The position numbers were made by a program, and so were the translations under genes. The notes beneath the pieces were generated by a model. That model had not been told where the DNA came from, ran no database searches, and saw only the letters and a list, made by a program, of their open reading frames with translations. Below are positions 3,261 to 13,022 of a stretch of 34,260 bases of DNA, one piece after another (the first letter of the stretch is position 1; each line of letters opens with the position of its first letter). Source of the stretch: a virus; the IMG/VR virus record IMGVR_UViG_3300044527_000091, positions 1-34,260 of that record; one strand, 5' to 3'.

Positions 3261-3437
3261 ATGGCTTTAACGATTCTGGACTTATTTGAAAAACTTAAGA
3301 GACTGGATGAAATATCTCTACTTGAGATATTGAACATAACAGCGGAAGAACTGGTAGACAGGTTTGAGGACAGAATCGAAGCCATGTTTGACCAACTTGT
3401 TGACGAAATAGATGACACCGAAGAGGACGAAGAATGA
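3261..3437 (+). CDS. Small acidic hypothetical protein
   Basis: A 58-residue acidic, helix-rich protein (leucine-rich LFEKLKRLDEISLLEIL, then an Asp/Glu tail). ATG 3261 is chosen because AAGGAG (3250-3255) lies five bases upstream. The in-frame GTG at 3255 is part of that site. It ends with an ATGA overlap onto the ribonucleotide reductase, so the two are probably translated together. Function unknown. It resembles a small coiled-coil accessory or inhibitor only in composition. Confidence 0.6.
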   Translation: MALTILDLFEKLKRLDEISLLEILNITAEELVDRFEDRIEAMFDQLVDEIDDTEEDEE

Positions 3438-5332
3438 AGTTAAATAACTACTCAAGTTTTATCCACAAAAGCCGCTACAGTCGTTTCATTGACGAACAAG
3501 GCAGACGTGAGAACTGGAGTGAAACAGTTGAACGCTACATGGGTTTCATGAAGAAACAACTGTTAGACAAACACAAGTATGAGATCCCACAACACATCTA
3601 TAAGACAGTGCATAAAGCAATCCTAAACATGGATGTAATGCCTTCGATGCGTTGTATGATGACTGCTGGAGAGGCACTTGAGCGTCAGAACATTGCTGGT
3701 TATAACTGTAGTTATCTGCCTATCGACGACCCTAAGTCCTTTGATGAGGCGATGTACATCCTCTTATGCGGTACAGGCGTTGGATTCTCAGTAGAGGCTA
3801 AGTATGTTAATCAACTACCTGAAGTCCCTGATCAGTTATTTGATAGTAAAACTACTATCGTGGTATCCGACAGCAAAGAGGGCTGGGCTAAAGCATTACG
3901 ACAACTCATTGCTTTACTATACGCTGGAGAAATTGCAACCTGGGATGTATCCAAAGTTAGACCTGCTGGCTCCAGACTTAAGACCTTTGGAGGCAGAGCT
4001 TCTGGTCCAGAACCCCTCGTTGAACTATTCAAATTTGTTATTAGGAAGTTCCAAGCGGCCAAAAATCGTCGTCTGTCGTCCCTTGAATGCCATGATATTC
4101 TGTGCAAGATCGGGGAGGTTGTTGTTGTGGGTGGTGTGCGGCGTTCTGCGATGATTTCTTTAAGCGATCTCAGTGATGATCGTATGGCACACGCTAAAGC
4201 AGGAGCATGGTGGGAACAACAAGGACAGCGTAGCCTTGCTAACAACTCTGCTGTGTATGATGTAAAGCCTTCAGTAGGACAGTTTATGCGTGAATGGTGT
4301 TCGATCTATGAAAGCCATTCAGGTGAACGTGGTATCTTTAACAGAGATGCATCGAAGAAGCAAGCAGCTATCAATGGCCGTAGAGACCCTAACCATGACT
4401 TTGGTACGAATCCTTGCTCAGAGATTATCCTTCGTCCTTACCAGTTCTGTAACCTCACAGAGGTCATTGTTCGTGATACGGACACACTTCAAGACTTGAT
4501 GTACAAAGTACGTGTAGCAGCGATTCTAGGCACTTGGCAGAGCACGATGACTACCTTTCCATACCTACGTAAGATCTGGGAAAAGAACACCGCTGAAGAG
4601 CGTCTATTGGGTGTATCGCTGACAGGTATCTACGATCATAAGCTACTGAATGATCCTGATGATAAAGCGTTACCAGCAAGATTGGAGATGTTGAAAAATG
4701 AAGCAATCATTGCTAACGAAGTTACAGCAAATGCTCTTAATATCCCTGTCTCTGCTGCTATCACTTGCGTCAAGCCTTCTGGTACTGTGTCTCAGCTTTG
4801 TGGCACTGCTTCTGGCATTCATCCTCAACATGCCCAGTATTACATTAGGCGTGTACGATCAGATAAAAAAGACCCTCTCACGGCGTTTATGATCGAACAA
4901 GGTATTCCTAGTGAACCTTGTGTGATGAGACCGGATAGCACTACCGTGTTCTCATTTCCTATGAAGGCTCCTGAAGGTGCTATCACCAGGGATGATGTTG
5001 ATGCTATAGCTCACCTTAACTTATGGCGTGTGTATCAGCTTCACTGGTGCGAACATAAACCTTCAGTGACTATCTCAGTTAATGAGAATGATTGGCCTAC
5101 TGTAGGTGCTTGGGTGTATGACAACTTTGATATCTGTACTGGTGTATCATTCCTGCCAATGGATGGGGGTACGTATAGGCAAGCTCCTTATGAGACATGC
5201 AGCAAGGAAGACTATGAAGCCTTGTTAGCTAAGATGCCAGTAAATATCAACTGGGATATGCTTAAGGAAAATGATGATAACGTTGAGGGTGCACAGCAGC
5301 TTGCCTGTGTAGCCGGTGTGTGTGAAATCTAG
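3434..5332 (+). CDS. Class II (adenosylcobalamin-dependent) ribonucleotide reductase
   Basis: Reduces ribonucleoside triphosphates to deoxynucleotides using a B12-generated radical, feeding phage DNA synthesis. It matches the monomeric RTPR type. C92 (YNCSYL) and C339 (QFCNLTE) form the redox pair. NPCSE (326-330) carries the thiyl Cys C328 with its Asn and Glu partners. GVRRSAMISLSD (234-245) and VKPSGTVSQLCG are conserved barrel segments. The C-terminal C625-x4-C630 pair passes electrons from thioredoxin. At 632 residues it is about 100 shorter than the Lactobacillus enzyme (739). It starts by an ATGA overlap with the preceding gene and is the last gene of this plus-strand block. Confidence 0.92.
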   Translation: MKLNNYSSFIHKSRYSRFIDEQGRRENWSETVERYMGFMKKQLLDKHKYEIPQHIYKTVHKAILNMDVMPSMRCMMTAGEALERQNIAGYNCSYLPIDDPKSFDEAMYILLCGTGVGFSVEAKYVNQLPEVPDQLFDSKTTIVVSDSKEGWAKALRQLIALLYAGEIATWDVSKVRPAGSRLKTFGGRASGPEPLVELFKFVIRKFQAAKNRRLSSLECHDILCKIGEVVVVGGVRRSAMISLSDLSDDRMAHAKAGAWWEQQGQRSLANNSAVYDVKPSVGQFMREWCSIYESHSGERGIFNRDASKKQAAINGRRDPNHDFGTNPCSEIILRPYQFCNLTEVIVRDTDTLQDLMYKVRVAAILGTWQSTMTTFPYLRKIWEKNTAEERLLGVSLTGIYDHKLLNDPDDKALPARLEMLKNEAIIANEVTANALNIPVSAAITCVKPSGTVSQLCGTASGIHPQHAQYYIRRVRSDKKDPLTAFMIEQGIPSEPCVMRPDSTTVFSFPMKAPEGAITRDDVDAIAHLNLWRVYQLHWCEHKPSVTISVNENDWPTVGAWVYDNFDICTGVSFLPMDGGTYRQAPYETCSKEDYEALLAKMPVNINWDMLKENDDNVEGAQQLACVAGVCEI

Positions 5333-5334
5333 AT

Positions 5335-5361
5335 AAAAAAAAGACCCCTGCAAAGGGGTCT
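5335..5361 (-). terminator. Rho-independent terminator of the minus-strand late block
   Basis: An 8-bp perfect stem (AGACCCCT / AGGGGTCT) closes a GCAA loop at 5342-5361. On the minus strand the stem is followed by eight T residues (A8 on the plus strand at 5335-5342), which is a textbook intrinsic terminator. On the plus strand no T run follows, so it should act mainly on transcripts coming leftward out of the endolysin gene. It sits between the two converging blocks. Confidence 0.85.
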
Positions 5362-5383
5362 ATAAAGGTCACTAAGGAAAACT

Positions 5384-5557
5384 ATGCCGAATATATGGGG
5401 TTGGTCTTTTCTATCAGGGTTTATGTTAGGGATTTGTTACTCTGATGATTTTGTCGTAGCTGACGAGGACGGATCTGAGGTTCTTCTGGAAGGGTTCTTT
5501 GTCTTCATCAACATTGCCATGTTCAGTTTTGTTATTGGATGGGCTAAGGAGGAATAA
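5384..5557 (+). CDS. Small putative two-TM membrane protein, antisense to endolysin tail
   Basis: A 57-residue reading frame starting ATG with AAGGA six bases upstream (TAAGGAAAACT-ATG). The translation has a hydrophobic N-terminal segment (IWGWSFLSGFMLGICY, 4-19), an acidic middle (DDFVVADEDGSE) and a second hydrophobic segment (GFFVFINIAMFSFVIGW, 37-53), ending WAKEE. This looks like a real two-span membrane protein. It follows the reductase gene on the same strand and runs antisense to the non-conserved tail of the endolysin. A role in lysis is possible but is only inferred from place and shape. Confidence 0.5.
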   Translation: MPNIWGWSFLSGFMLGICYSDDFVVADEDGSEVLLEGFFVFINIAMFSFVIGWAKEE

Positions 5558-5998
5558 TGTCGCCTCTGCTTCACGACGAAGAACAAGACCTCTGGATACT
5601 TTACCTGCTTCAAGATTCCAACGCTTTAGTTCTTGAACAGCTTCCTCCCATCTTTCTTGGTTTATTCTTGTTCGCATCGTGGATGCTCGGAGCCTAGCTG
5701 GTCCTAAGTTGTAAGTCCAGCTAACTATTGCAGCAGCTTTATTTTGGTGTTTCGTCAACACTGGACAGGCTTTGTAGACTTGAAGTAGGAACCTTTCTGC
5801 AGCAAGTTCAAACAATTCCTGTCCTCTTTCTTTTGAGATCTCAGGATCATCTAAGGTAACCCTATCACCATTTTCATACATTGTTGATCCCCAGCCTATG
5901 GTGGGGACGTTAGCACCGCATAGATAGGGTTTACTTCTCCAGCCTTCGAATCTCTTGATTAGTGGTTCAGCGATGGCGATTACTTTAGACAAGGACAT
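5426..5998 (-). CDS. Endolysin, GH24 lysozyme (muramidase)
   Basis: Cleaves the peptidoglycan glycan backbone to release progeny. The N-terminal FEGWRSKPYLCGANVPTIGWGST shows the T4/P22-type catalytic arrangement E18-x8-C27-x5-T33. Cys replaces the Asp of T4 lysozyme, as in many phage relatives. The helical C-lobe runs to about residue 150 (RGLVLRREAEATLFL). The last 40 residues look non-conserved and lie opposite a small plus-strand gene. There is no signal or SAR-type N-terminus, so export needs a holin. The start overlaps the HNH gene by 14 bases. It is the last gene of the late block. Confidence 0.9.
   Translation of the reverse strand: MSLSKVIAIAEPLIKRFEGWRSKPYLCGANVPTIGWGSTMYENGDRVTLDDPEISKERGQELFELAAERFLLQVYKACPVLTKHQNKAAAIVSWTYNLGPARLRASTMRTRINQERWEEAVQELKRWNLEAGKVSRGLVLRREAEATLFLLSPSNNKTEHGNVDEDKEPFQKNLRSVLVSYDKIIRVTNP
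5557..5697 (+). CDS. Possible 46-residue peptide, antisense to endolysin
   Basis: The ATG at 5557 overlaps the preceding stop as TAATG, and a strong AAGGAGG lies at 5546-5552. The product begins with an acidic amphipathic stretch and ends in a hydrophobic run (PPIFLGLFLFASWMLGA). It lies fully opposite the conserved endolysin core, so the frame could be open by chance. The good ribosome site and the coupling are the only positive evidence. Confidence 0.2.
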   Translation: MSPLLHDEEQDLWILYLLQDSNALVLEQLPPIFLGLFLFASWMLGA

Positions 5999-6440
5999 TG
6001 TTTTTCTTACTACAATTCTCTGATTCAGTTAATATTTGTAGATTCCAAGGAACATGAAGACCAGAAACAATAGAATTCTTTAAAGGTATAATATGATCAA
6101 CATGATGTGCTATACCAGTCTGAAAAGACTTTGCTTTAGCTATTTCATAAAACTCTTGAATCTGTACTAACTGTATCGGAGTTAACCACTTAGGACGGGC
6201 TTTCATTTTTCTTGTATATCCATCCATACAAGCTGCGTTATGTCTTGCGGAATTATCTAACTTCCACAGTTTTGCTCGCTCTTTATAAGAATCTTTGTTT
6301 TCTTCGTAGTTCTTCTTAGCCTTTTCATTGATCTTTTCTTTGTTCGCTAAGTAATACTGTCTTTTCTTTTCTCTCAAAACTTCCTTGTTCTTTTCTCTAT
6401 ATTTCCTGTCTTGCTCAGACTTTTTAGCTTTATCTATCAT
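5985..6440 (-). CDS. Free-standing HNH homing-type endonuclease
   Basis: The HNH core is HHVDHIIPLKNS...WNLQILTESEN-SKKN near the C-terminus (the HH/DH pair, then N, then the final Asn/Lys segment). The N-terminal half is very Lys/Glu-rich with imperfect repeats of about 16 residues around Y-x-x-N-K-E, probably a DNA-binding or helical region. ATG 6440 is chosen because it overlaps the upstream stop as ATGA. A TTG at 6458 is less likely. The gene lies between a holin-like gene and the endolysin, a typical landing place for a selfish intron-less homing endonuclease. Confidence 0.8.
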   Translation of the reverse strand: MIDKAKKSEQDRKYREKNKEVLREKKRQYYLANKEKINEKAKKNYEENKDSYKERAKLWKLDNSARHNAACMDGYTRKMKARPKWLTPIQLVQIQEFYEIAKAKSFQTGIAHHVDHIIPLKNSIVSGLHVPWNLQILTESENCSKKNNVLV

Positions 6441-6904
6441 TTCTTTGAAGACTCCCAAACTCTACCGACAAAATAGAACGATAGTATCATAGCTAACATA
6501 CCCTCATCAAAATCCGTCCAGCCTGTGATGAGTACATTAGTCCAAACACCATCTTGTAAGAAAGCTAAGTACAAACCTGCTATCTTCACAGCAGAATAAA
6601 AGAATACAAACCAGTACGTCACTGCTGGTCTAACCAAAGCAGATAGTGATGCTATCCACTTCCAAGCCTTGCTATCAGACTCTGCTTGTTGTTTGAATGC
6701 TTCACCGATAGCATCTAATTCATGCTCTTGTAGACGTTGGTGTCCCTGCTGTAGAGCAAACTCTGCTTGCATCTTAGCGATAGAGACTTCAACATCTAAC
6801 TTCTTTAGTTCATGCTCTCTTTCAAACTTCCTATCTAATATCTTAAGAAGCTCTGGAGCAAGTCTAAAAACACCACCGATCAGAGCACCAATGAGTTCAA
6901 ACAT
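6437..6904 (-). CDS. Putative holin-like membrane protein
   Basis: 155 residues. A hydrophobic, Gly-containing N-terminus (LIGALIGGVFRLAPELL), then a charged helical stretch (about 23-80, probably coiled coil), then two hydrophobic spans (VTYWFVFFYSAVKIAGLYLAFL and MLAMILSFYFVGRVW). The layout resembles phage three-span holins encoded next to an endolysin. The stop overlaps the next gene's start and the ATG overlaps the previous stop, so it is coupled on both sides. Holin activity is inferred from position and topology only. Confidence 0.55.
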   Translation of the reverse strand: MFELIGALIGGVFRLAPELLKILDRKFEREHELKKLDVEVSIAKMQAEFALQQGHQRLQEHELDAIGEAFKQQAESDSKAWKWIASLSALVRPAVTYWFVFFYSAVKIAGLYLAFLQDGVWTNVLITGWTDFDEGMLAMILSFYFVGRVWESSKK

Positions 6905-9477
6905 TACTGCATCTCCTCTGGCATGTTAGCCTGGATGGCTGGCGTAGCTCTTACAGCACCCATTGCAGCATCATTGATTGCCATCTCTAGTAAGTTAACA
7001 CCGAACTTCTGTGCTGACTTCAGTGCTGAATTAACCTTAGTTAAATCTAAAGATCCATCAGCCTTAGGTGTAAAAGCCTGAGATAGCTTTTTAACTTCTT
7101 GAGGATTAAGCAATAAAGCCTTAAGTTGAGCATCAGTAGCTTCTGCTGTCTGCTTTGCCCAGAACTTGGATAGTAGTGATGTTACTACGTACGGTGCTGA
7201 TGTAAACCGATCACGCACTTGTGATGCTATAGACTCTGGTGTAGTACCTGTTATACGCTCAATTTCTGTCTTAGGTACTTCCTGTACGTTAAACTTAACG
7301 TTAGCAGGGTTGTCCGCTAATCTCCTAGAAGCCTCTGCCAAACTCTCTACATTCTTAATGTACGTAGGACCAAAGACTTTATCGTAGGTAGCCTTTCTAG
7401 TCCTATCAGTTAGTGCTGCAATAGGATCAGAAGCGGACAACACATCATCTAACATGAATGATCGTACAGCATTCAATGTATCTACGTTACTGCCATAAGT
7501 ACGTAAGAACTGATCTACGTTAGCTGGTTTGCTGTATAGACCACTTACGATCTCTTGTGCAGTCTTACCTTCTAGTTGGAGTAGCTTATTCTTCTTAGCT
7601 TCAGTGAAGGCATTGTTAATCTTTACCTTCTCTGCGTTGAGAGCTGTAACATCACTAATAGCAAGACGAACATCATCAGCTCTAGTCCCAAGTAGCGAAA
7701 GTGTTGGGTTGTTTTCCTTTAACCATTTACTAGCAGCTTTTGGATCAATAACACCATCTTTGATAACTGCTTTATCAAAGTCAATAATAAAAGCTTTTTT
7801 GGCTAAATCAAAACCTTCACTACCTGTTGCTGCTAAGAATTGACTTAATGCTGATCTATTCTTAGTAAGGACAGGGAGAACAGTCTCATCAAACTTAGCT
7901 CTATCTACTTGTTTAATAGCTTCCTGGTTGTAAGGTAAACCTACATTCTCTCTAAAGGCTGCATCAGCAGCTTTGTATCTTGTTGAGAATTCTTCAGGTA
8001 AAGCATATATAGCATCATCAACCTTTGTACGAAGCTCTCCTAATAAACGAAGTTCTTTAGGATCGTTTGAACTACGTAATGCTTTGTTTACTGCTTGTTT
8101 CAAAGAGTCTAAATAACTAATATCAAGATTATTAAAAAGCTGTGTCTCTTGATTAGGGCTAAAGTGTTTGTTTATCTTATTCCACAATGAAGGAAAAGTA
8201 CCAAACACATCTACTGCTTGTTTCTGATTAGCGAATGTGTAGATATCCTCCACACTGTTTGCTGGTAATACAATGTTGTTTTGTTTAGCAAAATCAAAAG
8301 CAGAATCATACAACGGGCTAGTAGCTTTTCTAGCAGCATCTTCTTTGGTTTCTACTAACTTTTTGACACGAGAACCTAACTGCTGTTGATCAGAGACATT
8401 AAAGATAGACTCTTTAGCAATCTGTTTATTCAGTGCGTCTAGTCTACGTTGTTGTACCTTATCAAGAGGTATATCCTTAACAGTTTGTTCGATGATTGTA
8501 TTAGCTGTTGCTGGTTGTCCGAACAATCGTGTAGCTCTTCCCTCTAAAGCCTGTTGAGCTTGTTCAAACTGTTGACCGTACTGACTACGGAATACAGGAT
8601 CTCTGGCAGCTAAACTCCTAACTTGATCAACCAATACAGGGTTACTGTTTAGGATAGCCGTTGCTGGTAGTTGTACGCCAGTAGTACGAGCTATCTCATC
8701 AGCTCTCTGAATGTTAGCAGCAATGTTAGGGTCAGCATCAGCAGCAGCACGTAAGATGTTTTCTACAGCACTACTAGCTTCACGCTGTATTTCTTCATCT
8801 GGAACAGTACCACTAAAACGTTGTTTAGCTTGTTGTATCTTAGGAGCAACTCTGTCATATCCTAACTTAGCAGCTCTAAAACCAAGCTGAGATTGTCCTA
8901 AACCACCAGCCACACCACCAGTTAAAGCACCGACAAACTGACCAGCATCACCAGCGATGTTCTGTCCTACTTGACCACCAAACTCTGCTGTCATTCCTGG
9001 TATGAAACCTTGCAATACTCTAGCAACAATACCACCACTACCAGAAGCAATGTTAACAGGCGAACCAGCAGACTCAATAGCAGCACCTGTAAGACGTAAT
9101 GCTTTATTAGGGGCAGGTATTTGCTGATAACCTACAGCCTGTTGTGTTCTTTGCTCTACAGGCTGAATAAACTGTTTTTCAATCTGTTGTGTTAGCCCTG
9201 GTTCTGCTGATGGAGTCTGTACAGGAGCTTCCATACCCGCAACAGCTCTCATAATATCTGGTACAAACCTAGCTACAGTCCCTTTAGCAACATCAGTTAA
9301 GTATTGACCAGGAGTAACACCAGTATCCTGTGGTCTGTTACGTTGGAATACCTTAGATAACTCTTTAGGTGTTACACCAGCCTGAGTAGGTAGTGTAGCA
9401 GCAATCTCATCAATCTCATCATCTGTGAGAGGCTTAGTAGTCCTTACAGTTCTACCGTTAATGGTATAAGTAGGCAT
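6904..9477 (-). CDS. Large internal virion / ejection-type protein
   Basis: 857 residues, unrecognised by specific motif. The start MPTYTINGRTVRTTKPLTDDEIDEIA is a short motif-like N-terminus. Residues 120-210 are Gly/Ala/Pro-rich and mildly hydrophobic (GSGGIVARVLQGFIPGM, FVGALTGGVAGGLGQ). The rest is long, helical and charged. Size, composition and position (third of three large proteins after adaptor and nozzle, before lysis) fit the ejection or internal core proteins of T7-like and P22-like podoviruses. The start has TAAGGAATAAGA just upstream. Confidence 0.6.
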   Translation of the reverse strand: MPTYTINGRTVRTTKPLTDDEIDEIAATLPTQAGVTPKELSKVFQRNRPQDTGVTPGQYLTDVAKGTVARFVPDIMRAVAGMEAPVQTPSAEPGLTQQIEKQFIQPVEQRTQQAVGYQQIPAPNKALRLTGAAIESAGSPVNIASGSGGIVARVLQGFIPGMTAEFGGQVGQNIAGDAGQFVGALTGGVAGGLGQSQLGFRAAKLGYDRVAPKIQQAKQRFSGTVPDEEIQREASSAVENILRAAADADPNIAANIQRADEIARTTGVQLPATAILNSNPVLVDQVRSLAARDPVFRSQYGQQFEQAQQALEGRATRLFGQPATANTIIEQTVKDIPLDKVQQRRLDALNKQIAKESIFNVSDQQQLGSRVKKLVETKEDAARKATSPLYDSAFDFAKQNNIVLPANSVEDIYTFANQKQAVDVFGTFPSLWNKINKHFSPNQETQLFNNLDISYLDSLKQAVNKALRSSNDPKELRLLGELRTKVDDAIYALPEEFSTRYKAADAAFRENVGLPYNQEAIKQVDRAKFDETVLPVLTKNRSALSQFLAATGSEGFDLAKKAFIIDFDKAVIKDGVIDPKAASKWLKENNPTLSLLGTRADDVRLAISDVTALNAEKVKINNAFTEAKKNKLLQLEGKTAQEIVSGLYSKPANVDQFLRTYGSNVDTLNAVRSFMLDDVLSASDPIAALTDRTRKATYDKVFGPTYIKNVESLAEASRRLADNPANVKFNVQEVPKTEIERITGTTPESIASQVRDRFTSAPYVVTSLLSKFWAKQTAEATDAQLKALLLNPQEVKKLSQAFTPKADGSLDLTKVNSALKSAQKFGVNLLEMAINDAAMGAVRATPAIQANMPEEMQ

Positions 9478-9491
9478 TCTTATTCCTTAGG

Positions 9492-10757
9492 TTATTCAAC
9501 AGTGTATTCAGTGCCTGACTTTGTTTTTCTCTTCCCTGTAGAAGTTCCTGGAACCACCCCAAAAGATTCTTCAAACGATGGGAAAATAGCGTTAGGATCA
9601 CCACCAGATTCTTTCTTAATTGCTTGTCTGAATGGGTTTAACCTACGCTCATATTGATCTTGTTCTCGTTTACGTAATGCAACAAGAACAGCTCTACGAT
9701 CTTCGTTAGTAACTTTAGTGTCTTTACCAGAAACAAAGTTAACAAATCTATTAGCAATACGCTCATCAAGAGAACCAGTGTTAGCTAAACCCTTTACCTC
9801 AGTAGCTGCTTTCTGAGAATCACCAAAAATTGATGCAATCTCTTGACGTAAAGCAGCTTCAGAGAAAGGTGTGTTTTGATCTATCAGCGATATTGAACGA
9901 TCAATAGACTGTACTCTATCAAAGATTGGTTTTGTAGCTTTTTGCCCTTGATCGACCAAAGCAGCAGTCTGTGGTGTGTTAAGAACAACATTGGTTGTTG
10001 AGCCACCTTCTCTAATTTGTCCAGTGAACGGTACTTCTTTTCCTTGACTATCGAAGGTAAACTGTTTACGTGTCTCAGGATCATAGTAAACCACTTGTCC
10101 TGTAGTTGATACACCTACTTTTTTTGGTTCTTTTGCTGCTTTTGGTTCTCTTGTGCTTTCTTTGTTAATATAGCTATCAAGTTCCTTCTTCCTTGTTTCA
10201 AGCCTTGTTCGAACTTGAGGATCTTGTTCTGTTTGCAAAGCATCATCAAGAGCATCTCTAGCTTCTTGATATTGGACTAAAGAAGGTACTTTAGCTGTTT
10301 TGGCTTGTTCTGCCTTACGTAGTGCTTCTTGTGTTTGTGCAGCAAGCTTACCAATCTCATAAGTCTGTCTAATACGTTTCTGTTCTTTATCAAGCGCAGA
10401 CTCTTCAGCAGCCTTAACCTGTGCAGCAGCAGAGATAGCTTCCTGTGTTAGACCAAGCCTAGCAGCTTCTTTAGCCATGATCTTGTAAGCTACTACAGGG
10501 TCTTGTCCATCCCATTGTGCTGAGATAGCATTCTTTAGTTCCTGCCTAGCTGATGCTTCCTTCAGCTTAGGGTCTTCCACACCGAACAACCCTGCAATAG
10601 ATCTACCAGCCTGTGTACCCGCCATAGCAGCACCAGCCCTAATGCTTTGATATGGTGTTAATCGAGCTTGAGCTATTGCGTTTTCTCTGTCCTGTTGCAT
10701 CTGTTGTTGTTGTACATCGTAGATGCTTGGACCAAATAGACTTTGTTGCTGTGCCAT
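9492..10757 (-). CDS. Internal virion-type structural protein
   Basis: 421 residues, Gln/Ala/Lys-rich and mostly helical. It starts MAQQQSLFGPSIYDVQQQQMQQ and has a Gly/Ala patch (SIRAGAAMAGTQAGRSIAGLFG) followed by long charged helices. The C-terminal portion carries NRFVNFVSGKDTKVTNEDRRAVL. It lies between two other large helical proteins in the ejection-protein position and was probably injected or packed with the DNA. No enzymatic signature is seen. A TAAGGAA ribosome site precedes the ATG. Confidence 0.55.
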   Translation of the reverse strand: MAQQQSLFGPSIYDVQQQQMQQDRENAIAQARLTPYQSIRAGAAMAGTQAGRSIAGLFGVEDPKLKEASARQELKNAISAQWDGQDPVVAYKIMAKEAARLGLTQEAISAAAQVKAAEESALDKEQKRIRQTYEIGKLAAQTQEALRKAEQAKTAKVPSLVQYQEARDALDDALQTEQDPQVRTRLETRKKELDSYINKESTREPKAAKEPKKVGVSTTGQVVYYDPETRKQFTFDSQGKEVPFTGQIREGGSTTNVVLNTPQTAALVDQGQKATKPIFDRVQSIDRSISLIDQNTPFSEAALRQEIASIFGDSQKAATEVKGLANTGSLDERIANRFVNFVSGKDTKVTNEDRRAVLVALRKREQDQYERRLNPFRQAIKKESGGDPNAIFPSFEESFGVVPGTSTGKRKTKSGTEYTVE

Positions 10758-10766
10758 TACTGTTCC

Positions 10767-13022
10767 TTACATTAGAAACTGACCAATGTCTTGATTACCG
10801 TATCCTAGTCCAGTACCAAAACCTAAGCTATTGATGTTTCCAGCAGCATTAGGATTTAGTATATTACTTAAGAGTCCTCCAGCAGCACTTCCTAAAGCAC
10901 CTTGGTTACCTAATATCTGATTAGCTACATTCTGTCTACCAGACATTAAACTAGCTAGTGCTTCTTGTTGGGCTTGTAAGTTACCTGCTAGACCAAGACT
11001 ACGTAGGTTACCTTGTGCATTCAAACCAGCTAACTGTGCTTGTAACTGTTGCTGTACACCAGCCTGTTGAGCATTAGCAGCTAACTGTTGACCTGCTAAG
11101 CCTGTCTGAGCCTGCGTCATGTAACCCTGTGCTGCTGGTTGAGCGAACAATCCTGCTGCACTGATCCTACCTTGTTGTGCTAGTTGACCTAACTGACCAG
11201 ACAACTGAGCCTGTGCCATCTCTTGCTGTGTTAACTGTTGTATAGGTGCTAGTGCCGCAGTGCCTTGGCTGAGGAGCGTACCACGTTCTCCTAAAGCAGC
11301 CTGTCTAGACTGTAGCTCTCTTTCTAGTTGCTGTCTAGCAATGGCTTGTTCCTGTGCTAACAGCTCTGGTGAAGAACCACCAAAAGCTGAACCACTTACA
11401 CCCAATCTTCCTTGAGCACGTAACCTAGCCTCTGTAGCAAGGCGTTGACGCTCTACTTCAGGTGCAGACAATGCAGCTAACTTGTTGTAGTAATCCTGAC
11501 TAAGCTGGTCTACGTTAGTCATGTTAGCAGCATTGATAGACTGATAAACAGACTGTGCTAATGGATTATATATACCAGCTCTTGCATCTTCTGTCAAGGC
11601 AGTGTTAACCTGTCCTGTCTTAGGATCATAGGTAGTTCCGAACAAAGAACCAGTAACACCATAAGGTGTAAACTGACCAACCATGTTAGCAGCAGTTTTA
11701 CCTACATTCATCAAACCTTGCTGTGCTGTGTTACCTAATGCTTGTGTATAAGGAAGAATACCTTGAGCAATCTGTGTCTGACCTAACCTAGCTGCTGCTC
11801 CCGCTGCATCGTACTGACCACCTAACTGATTAGCTAAGTTAGTGTATTCTGTTTGAGTTAGTTGTCCTTGCTGACGTAGCTTGTTAGCAGCATCCTGGAT
11901 CATTGCTAAGTTAGCACCAGAACTAATCAAACCACCAAGAACATTCTGTGCGTTAGTGTTCGTTAATCCTTGTAGTAAGGTGTTAGCTGCTGTGGTAAAC
12001 AACGATGCTGGGTTAAACAGTGTACTGGCAGCACCAGTTGCTGCACCTGTAGCGGCTCCTGTGGCTGCTGCGCCTGTGGCAGCACCTGCACCAGCACCAA
12101 CACCTGCACCAACACCTGCACCAGCACCAACACCTGCACCAACACCTGCACCAGCACCAACACCTGTGCCAGCACCTGCACCAGCACCAACACCTGTGCC
12201 AGCACCAGCACCAACACCAGCACCTGTGGCAGCACCTGTAGCGGCTGTACCAGCACCTGTACCAGCTCCTACTGCTGTACCGCCTAATGCTCCTGCGCCT
12301 GTAACCGTACCTGCTCCGGCTCCAGCAGCACCAGCGCCTTCTCCAAGAGCACCTAAGCCACCAAGCTCTGCTGCACCAGCGCCACCACCAAACAAGCCAC
12401 CAGCAGCTTCCAATAAAGCAGGACCACCGATAACAGCAGCAGCACCTAAAGCAATCTGAGGAAGTGCGCTAACAAATCGTTGCCACATTGAACGATCTTC
12501 AGATACAACTTGACTTACTTGTCCTGTGATAGGATCTAAGACATCATATCGTTTATTATTACCTGATAGACCTGACTGATCTGTAGACATAGTGACTAGA
12601 TTATCACCTGAAGGTCCAACAAGCCAATCACGCCCTTGGAAGTTAACTGGGTTGTATCGTGTCTCGTTACCGCCTTCTAAGCTTTCTGTGTACCTAGCAC
12701 TTTCAATAGCTTTCTGAGCAGGTGTTAACTGAGCAACCCTAGCTTGTTCAAACAACCAATCAATTTGCTGATCTTTAGCGCTTCTAACAACGGTTCCACT
12801 CTCTTCTTGGAAACCCATCTGATCAGTAAATGTAGGTATGTTTGACTTCGCTGCAACGCCTCTTTCAGCAAACCAAGCAGTATCTTCTGGTTTAATAACA
12901 CCAAGACTAACTAAGTTATCTGTAGATATACCTACATCCTTAAAGAACTTAGCTTTGTCACCTGCCCCTAATTTGTCCCAGTTAGCAGGAAGTATGTTCC
13001 TGATTTCCTCTTCTGTAAACAT
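10767..13022 (-). CDS. Internal virion-type protein with Gly-Ala-Val repeat linker
   Basis: 751 residues in three parts. Residues 1-190 are a globular-looking N-terminal part. Residues about 195-345 are a Gly/Ala-rich tract that becomes a near-perfect (G-A-G-V/T) low-complexity repeat. The C-terminal 400 residues are Gln/Ala/Leu-rich and helical, with repeats such as AQLAGLNAQGNLRSLGLAGN. The low-complexity tract is encoded by tandem 30-bp DNA repeats (12091-12210). It is probably a flexible or membrane-active linker in an ejected protein. Position in the block suggests a core or ejection protein; this is inference. Confidence 0.6.
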   Translation of the reverse strand: MFTEEEIRNILPANWDKLGAGDKAKFFKDVGISTDNLVSLGVIKPEDTAWFAERGVAAKSNIPTFTDQMGFQEESGTVVRSAKDQQIDWLFEQARVAQLTPAQKAIESARYTESLEGGNETRYNPVNFQGRDWLVGPSGDNLVTMSTDQSGLSGNNKRYDVLDPITGQVSQVVSEDRSMWQRFVSALPQIALGAAAVIGGPALLEAAGGLFGGGAGAAELGGLGALGEGAGAAGAGAGTVTGAGALGGTAVGAGTGAGTAATGAATGAGVGAGAGTGVGAGAGAGTGVGAGAGVGAGVGAGAGVGAGVGAGAGAATGAAATGAATGAATGAASTLFNPASLFTTAANTLLQGLTNTNAQNVLGGLISSGANLAMIQDAANKLRQQGQLTQTEYTNLANQLGGQYDAAGAAARLGQTQIAQGILPYTQALGNTAQQGLMNVGKTAANMVGQFTPYGVTGSLFGTTYDPKTGQVNTALTEDARAGIYNPLAQSVYQSINAANMTNVDQLSQDYYNKLAALSAPEVERQRLATEARLRAQGRLGVSGSAFGGSSPELLAQEQAIARQQLERELQSRQAALGERGTLLSQGTAALAPIQQLTQQEMAQAQLSGQLGQLAQQGRISAAGLFAQPAAQGYMTQAQTGLAGQQLAANAQQAGVQQQLQAQLAGLNAQGNLRSLGLAGNLQAQQEALASLMSGRQNVANQILGNQGALGSAAGGLLSNILNPNAAGNINSLGFGTGLGYGNQDIGQFLM
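12091..12210. repeat. Four tandem 30-bp repeats inside the internal-protein gene
   Basis: Four consecutive 30-bp units start at 12091, 12121, 12151 and 12181, each beginning CCAGCACCAACACCTG. The first two are identical and the last two differ at a few bases. They encode ten residues each of Gly/Ala/Val/Thr on the minus strand. The flanking DNA (about 12020-12260) is a more degenerate version. Such repeats can change copy number by slippage. Confidence 0.9.

Follow-up and report, generated by a model that had tools for sequence, protein, structure and literature searches.

ORF1, a 57-residue frame on the plus strand opposite the C-terminal tail of a phage endolysin, is under purifying selection as a protein and is a genuine conserved gene. 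On the other strand of the same DNA, the endolysin tail is nearly unconstrained. The window analysed here is a 34,260-base fragment of a tailed-phage genome. The left part of its plus strand carries genes for an exonuclease, a thymidylate synthase, a DNA polymerase exonuclease subunit and the ribonucleotide reductase NrdJ, and a long minus-strand part carries the terminase, portal, capsid, tail and lysis genes. Given this gene content, describing the plus strand as the early strand, as the original prediction did, is reasonable. nrdJ and the endolysin gene converge, and ORF1 begins on the nrdJ strand, 51 nt past the stop codon of that gene. The features at this junction are as follows.

3434-5332, plus strand: nrdJ, B12-dependent ribonucleotide reductase, the upstream partner (phrog_367, E=2.4e-185)
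5342-5361, minus strand: intrinsic terminator for late transcription through the endolysin gene, located between nrdJ and ORF1 (scan: 8 bp stem, T-run)
5370-5383, plus strand: leader CACTAAGGAAAACT with a Shine-Dalgarno-like AAGGA, conserved before the ORF1 ATG
5384-5557, plus strand: ORF1, 57 aa and TAA, ATG start (intact frame, N/S, codon-position flip, family profile matches)
5426-5998, minus strand: endolysin, 190 aa, Phage_lysozyme domain at residues 15-145 (PF00959, E=5.7e-30; phrog_7, E=2.5e-40)
5429-5554, minus strand: endolysin tail, residues 149-190, opposite ORF1 (N/S 0.73, stop variation, end of matches)
5557-5697, plus strand: ORF2, candidate gene, 46 aa and stop, ATG start, hydrophobic C-terminus, opposite the endolysin catalytic domain and coupled to ORF1 by TAATG

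Both plus-strand frames are present as originally described: TAAGGAAAACT precedes the ORF1 ATG and AAGGAGG precedes the ORF2 start.

Selection on the overlapping frames

ORF1 had 57 matching loci in IMG/VR, of which two run off the end of a contig. The frame was 57 residues long, with no indel or stop, in 46/46 relatives and in nine further sequences; stops in the plus-strand frame were sought, and ORF1 was intact in all complete relatives. With constraint from the endolysin only, neither ORF1 nor ORF2 stayed open in all leaves in any of 300 simulations each, under a simple mutation model that ignored codon usage. A third antisense frame, in phase 0 at 5460-5633, was likewise open in the 34/34 relatives examined. 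Given this open control frame, openness is weak proof of a gene; it was dropped as an argument after this control, and we relied on codon-position evidence.

The codons of ORF1 are exact reverse complements of endolysin codons, so that endolysin third positions lie opposite ORF1 first positions. Among 37 unique sequences, ORF1 positions 1, 2 and 3 had 0.60, 0.17 and 1.79 changes per site within the overlap, against 2.18, 0.23 and 0.55 in the same phases of the endolysin outside it. The codon-position pattern thus flips over the overlap (Fisher p=3.4e-22), with changes concentrated at the ORF1 wobble position, which is the endolysin first position. Among 45 unique sequences, N/S of ORF1 was 0.14 inside the overlap and 0.16 in its 14 codons outside the endolysin, whereas the endolysin tail gave 0.73. 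The rate of ORF1-synonymous change (3.46) was close to the endolysin background (3.99), indicating a normal supply of mutations. The site-by-site comparison that had been proposed as a check therefore identifies ORF1 as the constrained frame, and the description of the endolysin tail as non-conserved was correct.

The endolysin stop at 5426-5428 is replaced by CAA in 22/46 relatives, which lengthens the protein by four residues. In isolated phages, most of the lysozyme matches reach no further than residues 147-156, and residue 148, where the catalytic domain ends, faces the ORF1 stop codon. The nearly free N/S, the lost stop and the end of the domain at the ORF1 stop indicate that the 42-residue tail is a by-product of reading ORF1 antisense. 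In one relative (L033, on a contig shared with L163; 619-1320), about 45 endolysin residues around a TKHQNKAAA motif are duplicated in frame within the protein, which could be real or an assembly artefact.

Opposite ORF2, it is the endolysin that is under selection, with fewer synonymous changes. Its synonymous rate there was 1.69 against 3.99 elsewhere, 2.4-fold lower (permutation p=0.0017), and rates in the stretches flanking ORF2 were normal. ORF2 second positions lie opposite endolysin third positions, and endolysin changes at third versus second positions numbered 37:17 opposite ORF2 compared with 214:23, a shift toward the ORF2 wobble position (p=1.2e-4). No internal stop occurred before residue 42 in 45 sequences, and the position of the stop codon varied by two codons. 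The start was ATG or GTG, except in one contig that has neither and carries a TTG one codon later. The junction with ORF1 read TAATG, TGATG or TAGTG, a coupling that suggests reinitiation of ORF2. ORF2 as a second member of the ORF1 family was ruled out, and a profile search found no homologue outside this phage group. We consider ORF2 a probable translated frame and a candidate overprinted gene. Of the two plus-strand frames predicted to be genes, ORF1 is one by its codon-position flip and ORF2 probably is.

A small-protein family between reductase and lysin genes

By position and profile similarity, ORF1 appears to belong to a family of 40-65 aa proteins that has no annotation and whose genes immediately follow the ribonucleotide reductase gene in many freshwater phages. 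It has the family's size, its location downstream of the reductase on the same strand, the convergent lysin and the sequence pattern (an invariant G-x3-G, an acidic turn and a second hydrophobic stretch). An ORF1 profile was run over a set of 11,310 ORFs, almost all of them taken from 78 loci with nrdJ. The matches were weak (best E=0.004), and most came from same-strand ORFs immediately following nrdJ. Such nrdJ-adjacent ORFs made up 7 of the ten best and 14 of the twenty best matches, compared with 0-1 and 0-4 for reversed or column-shuffled profiles. In the reciprocal search, a sister protein recovered ORF1 at E=0.007.

The sister groups are A4, A5 and the L178-type, the last placed in the family mainly by position. 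G12 and G16 are invariant in A3 and common to ORF1 and A4. Profile-profile comparison gave E=1.8e-8 for A4-A5, E=0.0015 for A1-A4 and E=1e-5 over 15 columns for A1-A5; the hhalign probability of ORF1 was 16% to A4 and 82% to A5, the sequences being short. Weak PHROG and Pfam matches of single sisters were disregarded. ORF1 itself had no match in Pfam, PHROG, PADLOC, PDB sequences, Rfam or GTDB genomes, and none in isolated phages beyond a chance match at E=9. Sister proteins were likewise absent from isolated phages, including the reductase regions of four of them. A literature search turned up no description of a small gene next to nrdJ in a phage, nor of one antisense to an endolysin.

Among nrdJ loci with room for the gene, a family member was found downstream in 49/72 and none was recognised in 23/72. 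The upstream neighbour is nrdJ or, once, nrdAB, sometimes with a glutaredoxin gene in between. The convergent gene on the far side encodes a lysozyme or an M15 peptidase, and 103/103 lysin-like ORFs were on the opposite strand. Reductase class and lysin class are thus exchanged around the small gene, and its position stays. The lysin gene stopped short of the small gene in 20/25 sister loci and overlapped it by 4-33 nt in the other five; a 132 nt overlap was seen only in the present phage group. Since the lysin stops before it in most sisters, the small gene is the older element and the long overlap is derived. For the same reason, the overlap is not needed for the small gene's conserved role.

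These linkages raise the question of whether NrdJ, the B12-dependent reductase, is the specific partner of the family proteins; we regard this reading as rather doubtful. A search from two sister alignments yielded 93 loci with nrdJ 0-930 nt upstream in 88/91 with room, a linkage to which shared descent contributes, because the seeds came from nrdJ-adjacent members. One group has the start codon of the small gene abutting or overlapping the nrdJ stop, which also fits a partnership. However, locus L323 keeps a close family member behind class I nrdB-nrdA and a glutaredoxin gene, with no nrdJ, and this reductase swap argues against a partner specific to NrdJ. Weak matches at L401 and L402 have no reductase nearby.

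Two further observations concern these loci. L323 (314-2964) shows a swap of reductase class inside one operon layout, the glutaredoxin and the small gene staying in place. The weak family-like frames at L401 (1893-2021) and L402 (1178-1306), which read GFEYVPD...AIDLLIVRILFLW, lie in a structural-gene context.

Product, expression and role of ORF1

ORF1 had been called a two-span membrane protein, a label derived from hydrophobicity alone. On the Hessa scale, the best 17-residue sum of its first hydrophobic segment is +2.8 to +5.0, which makes it a poor span; that of the second, residues 38-54, is about 0, a borderline value. In the A5 sisters the whole protein scored +3 to +9, invariant D and R residues fall within the second stretch, and there is no span. 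With a close alignment as input and again with a broader one, AlphaFold modelled ORF1 as four strands (pLDDT 73 and 70, pTM 0.45-0.48, a modest confidence). The charged residues in the sisters and the predicted strands leave the two-span description unsupported, and with it the assignment of ORF1 as a membrane or lysis protein. Most likely, ORF1 is a small soluble beta protein, judging by the model; its second hydrophobic stretch could be a membrane segment. Foldseek found no structural relative of the model in PDB or BFVD, and neither ORF1 nor ORF2 matched Pfam or PHROG families, known lysis families included.

Taken as a whole, we find it likely that ORF1 is an old, selected junction gene for a soluble beta protein with a role in nucleotide metabolism or host takeover, that the endolysin tail is passive and that ORF2 is a younger overprint. 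ORF1 would be the last conserved gene of the plus-strand nucleotide-metabolism operon, with its own ribosome site just past nrdJ, and would be expressed with the reductase operon. Position and profile similarity suggest that phages keep a gene of this family where the reductase and the convergent lysin meet. In this group the lysin gene would have lost its original stop and come to read about 130 nt through ORF1 antisense, giving the passive tail. ORF2, probably younger and overprinted on the endolysin domain, may be translated by termination-reinitiation from ORF1. We infer that ORF1 acts in the early or middle phase, in or beside dNTP supply or in host takeover, and not in membrane lysis.

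Given the constant lysin neighbour, the family may have a role in the timing of lysis. An undescribed family at the switch between nucleotide metabolism and lysis might make lysis wait for the completion of DNA synthesis or otherwise link the two in time, with ORF2 arising de novo on the catalytic domain of the endolysin; we think this unlikely.

A more direct role in lysis appears distinctly unlikely; in this reading, ORF1 and ORF2 would be small membrane proteins, antiholin-like or located in the host membrane, that the phage produces early from the strand opposite its late lysis gene. In its favour are the hydrophobic character of the ORF2 C-terminus and of residues 38-54 in ORF1, and the convergent lysin gene that always adjoins the family. 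Against this stand the poor N-terminal span, the A5 sisters with their positive sums and invariant charges, the predicted strands, the lack of a PHROG lysis match and a separate holin-like gene on the late strand (6437-6904).

The plus-strand RNA could instead be the functional element, antisense to the endolysin mRNA and delaying lysis, the coding frames being secondary. The hairpin at 5342-5361 has a T-run for the minus strand only and none on the plus side; late transcripts should accordingly end past ORF1, and plus transcripts can enter ORF1 and ORF2 and cover 270 nt of endolysin antisense. An antisense effect of such a putative transcript on the endolysin mRNA is possible. As the main function it is very unlikely, since conservation tracks codon positions with no RNA pattern, no Rfam family was matched, and the overlap is absent from most sister loci. 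In relatives the terminator stem is swapped for other complementary stems and the A-run is kept; GGTCACTAAGGAAAA(C/T)T upstream of the ORF1 ATG was found in every relative listed, though the preceding hairpin varies. The alternate stems are unrelated (GACCCC/GGGGTC, GCCCTCC/GGAGGGC, GGCCTCC/GGAGGCC), and the loop occurs in either orientation (TGCAAA or TTTGCA).

It is hardly credible that the plus-strand frames are open by chance, as a mirror image of a conserved endolysin: exact codon-antisense frames do tend to be open, as the control frame illustrates, but over ORF1 the endolysin is the unconstrained partner, the ORF1 codons beyond it are also constrained, the gene has sisters at loci that lack the overlap, and for ORF1 the codon-position flip refutes chance.

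Related systems and neighbouring genes

Antisense overlapping genes were reported in 21/347 Podoviridae reference genomes (PMC7017920). As in those dsDNA phage overlaps, the shared stretch of two oppositely oriented coding genes exceeds 50 nt here; unlike them, the small gene is the older one, the overlap arose from read-through of a convergent lysin, and a codon flip marks the selected frame. Candidate antisense proteins of bacteria come mainly from ribosome profiling and their selection is disputed (PMC7457138). They resemble ORF1 and ORF2 as short frames antisense to an annotated gene, whereas selection on ORF1 is clear and is known from sequence alone. Holins, antiholins and spanins share with ORF1 a small size, hydrophobic stretches and a place beside the endolysin gene; in contrast to them, ORF1 is on the opposite strand and in another operon, has no sequence match to them, has sisters that are not membrane-like and is predicted to form beta strands. 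NrdH-type glutaredoxins are also encoded by small genes of the reductase operon, sometimes directly adjacent, but the ORF1 family lacks a CxxC motif and sequence similarity to them, and the two coexist in one operon.

Here codon-position evidence singles out the genuine gene of a pair of antisense frames and shows an endolysin that overran an older small gene. The small-protein family at the reductase/lysin junction has been overlooked by Pfam, PHROGs and records of isolated phages, and it offers a concrete target for studying the roles of small early phage proteins.

The surroundings of the junction contain several other features. The holin-like gene at 6437-6904 matches phrog_6637, with a weak match to the holin phrog_3427. 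Between it and the endolysin lies an HNH-endonuclease-like gene (5985-6458; endonuclease VII/HNH PHROGs). Few relatives align there, so this gene has the appearance of a mobile element inserted into the lysis cassette. Three large late proteins of 856, 420 and 750 aa, encoded at 6904-13022 on the minus strand, had no PHROG match at E 0.001. Finally, contig IMGVR_UViG_3300011116_000294 (L044/L047; 42,225 bases) carries an nrdJ/endolysin junction at each end, which suggests that the genome is circularly permuted, about 37-38 kb long and redundantly assembled.
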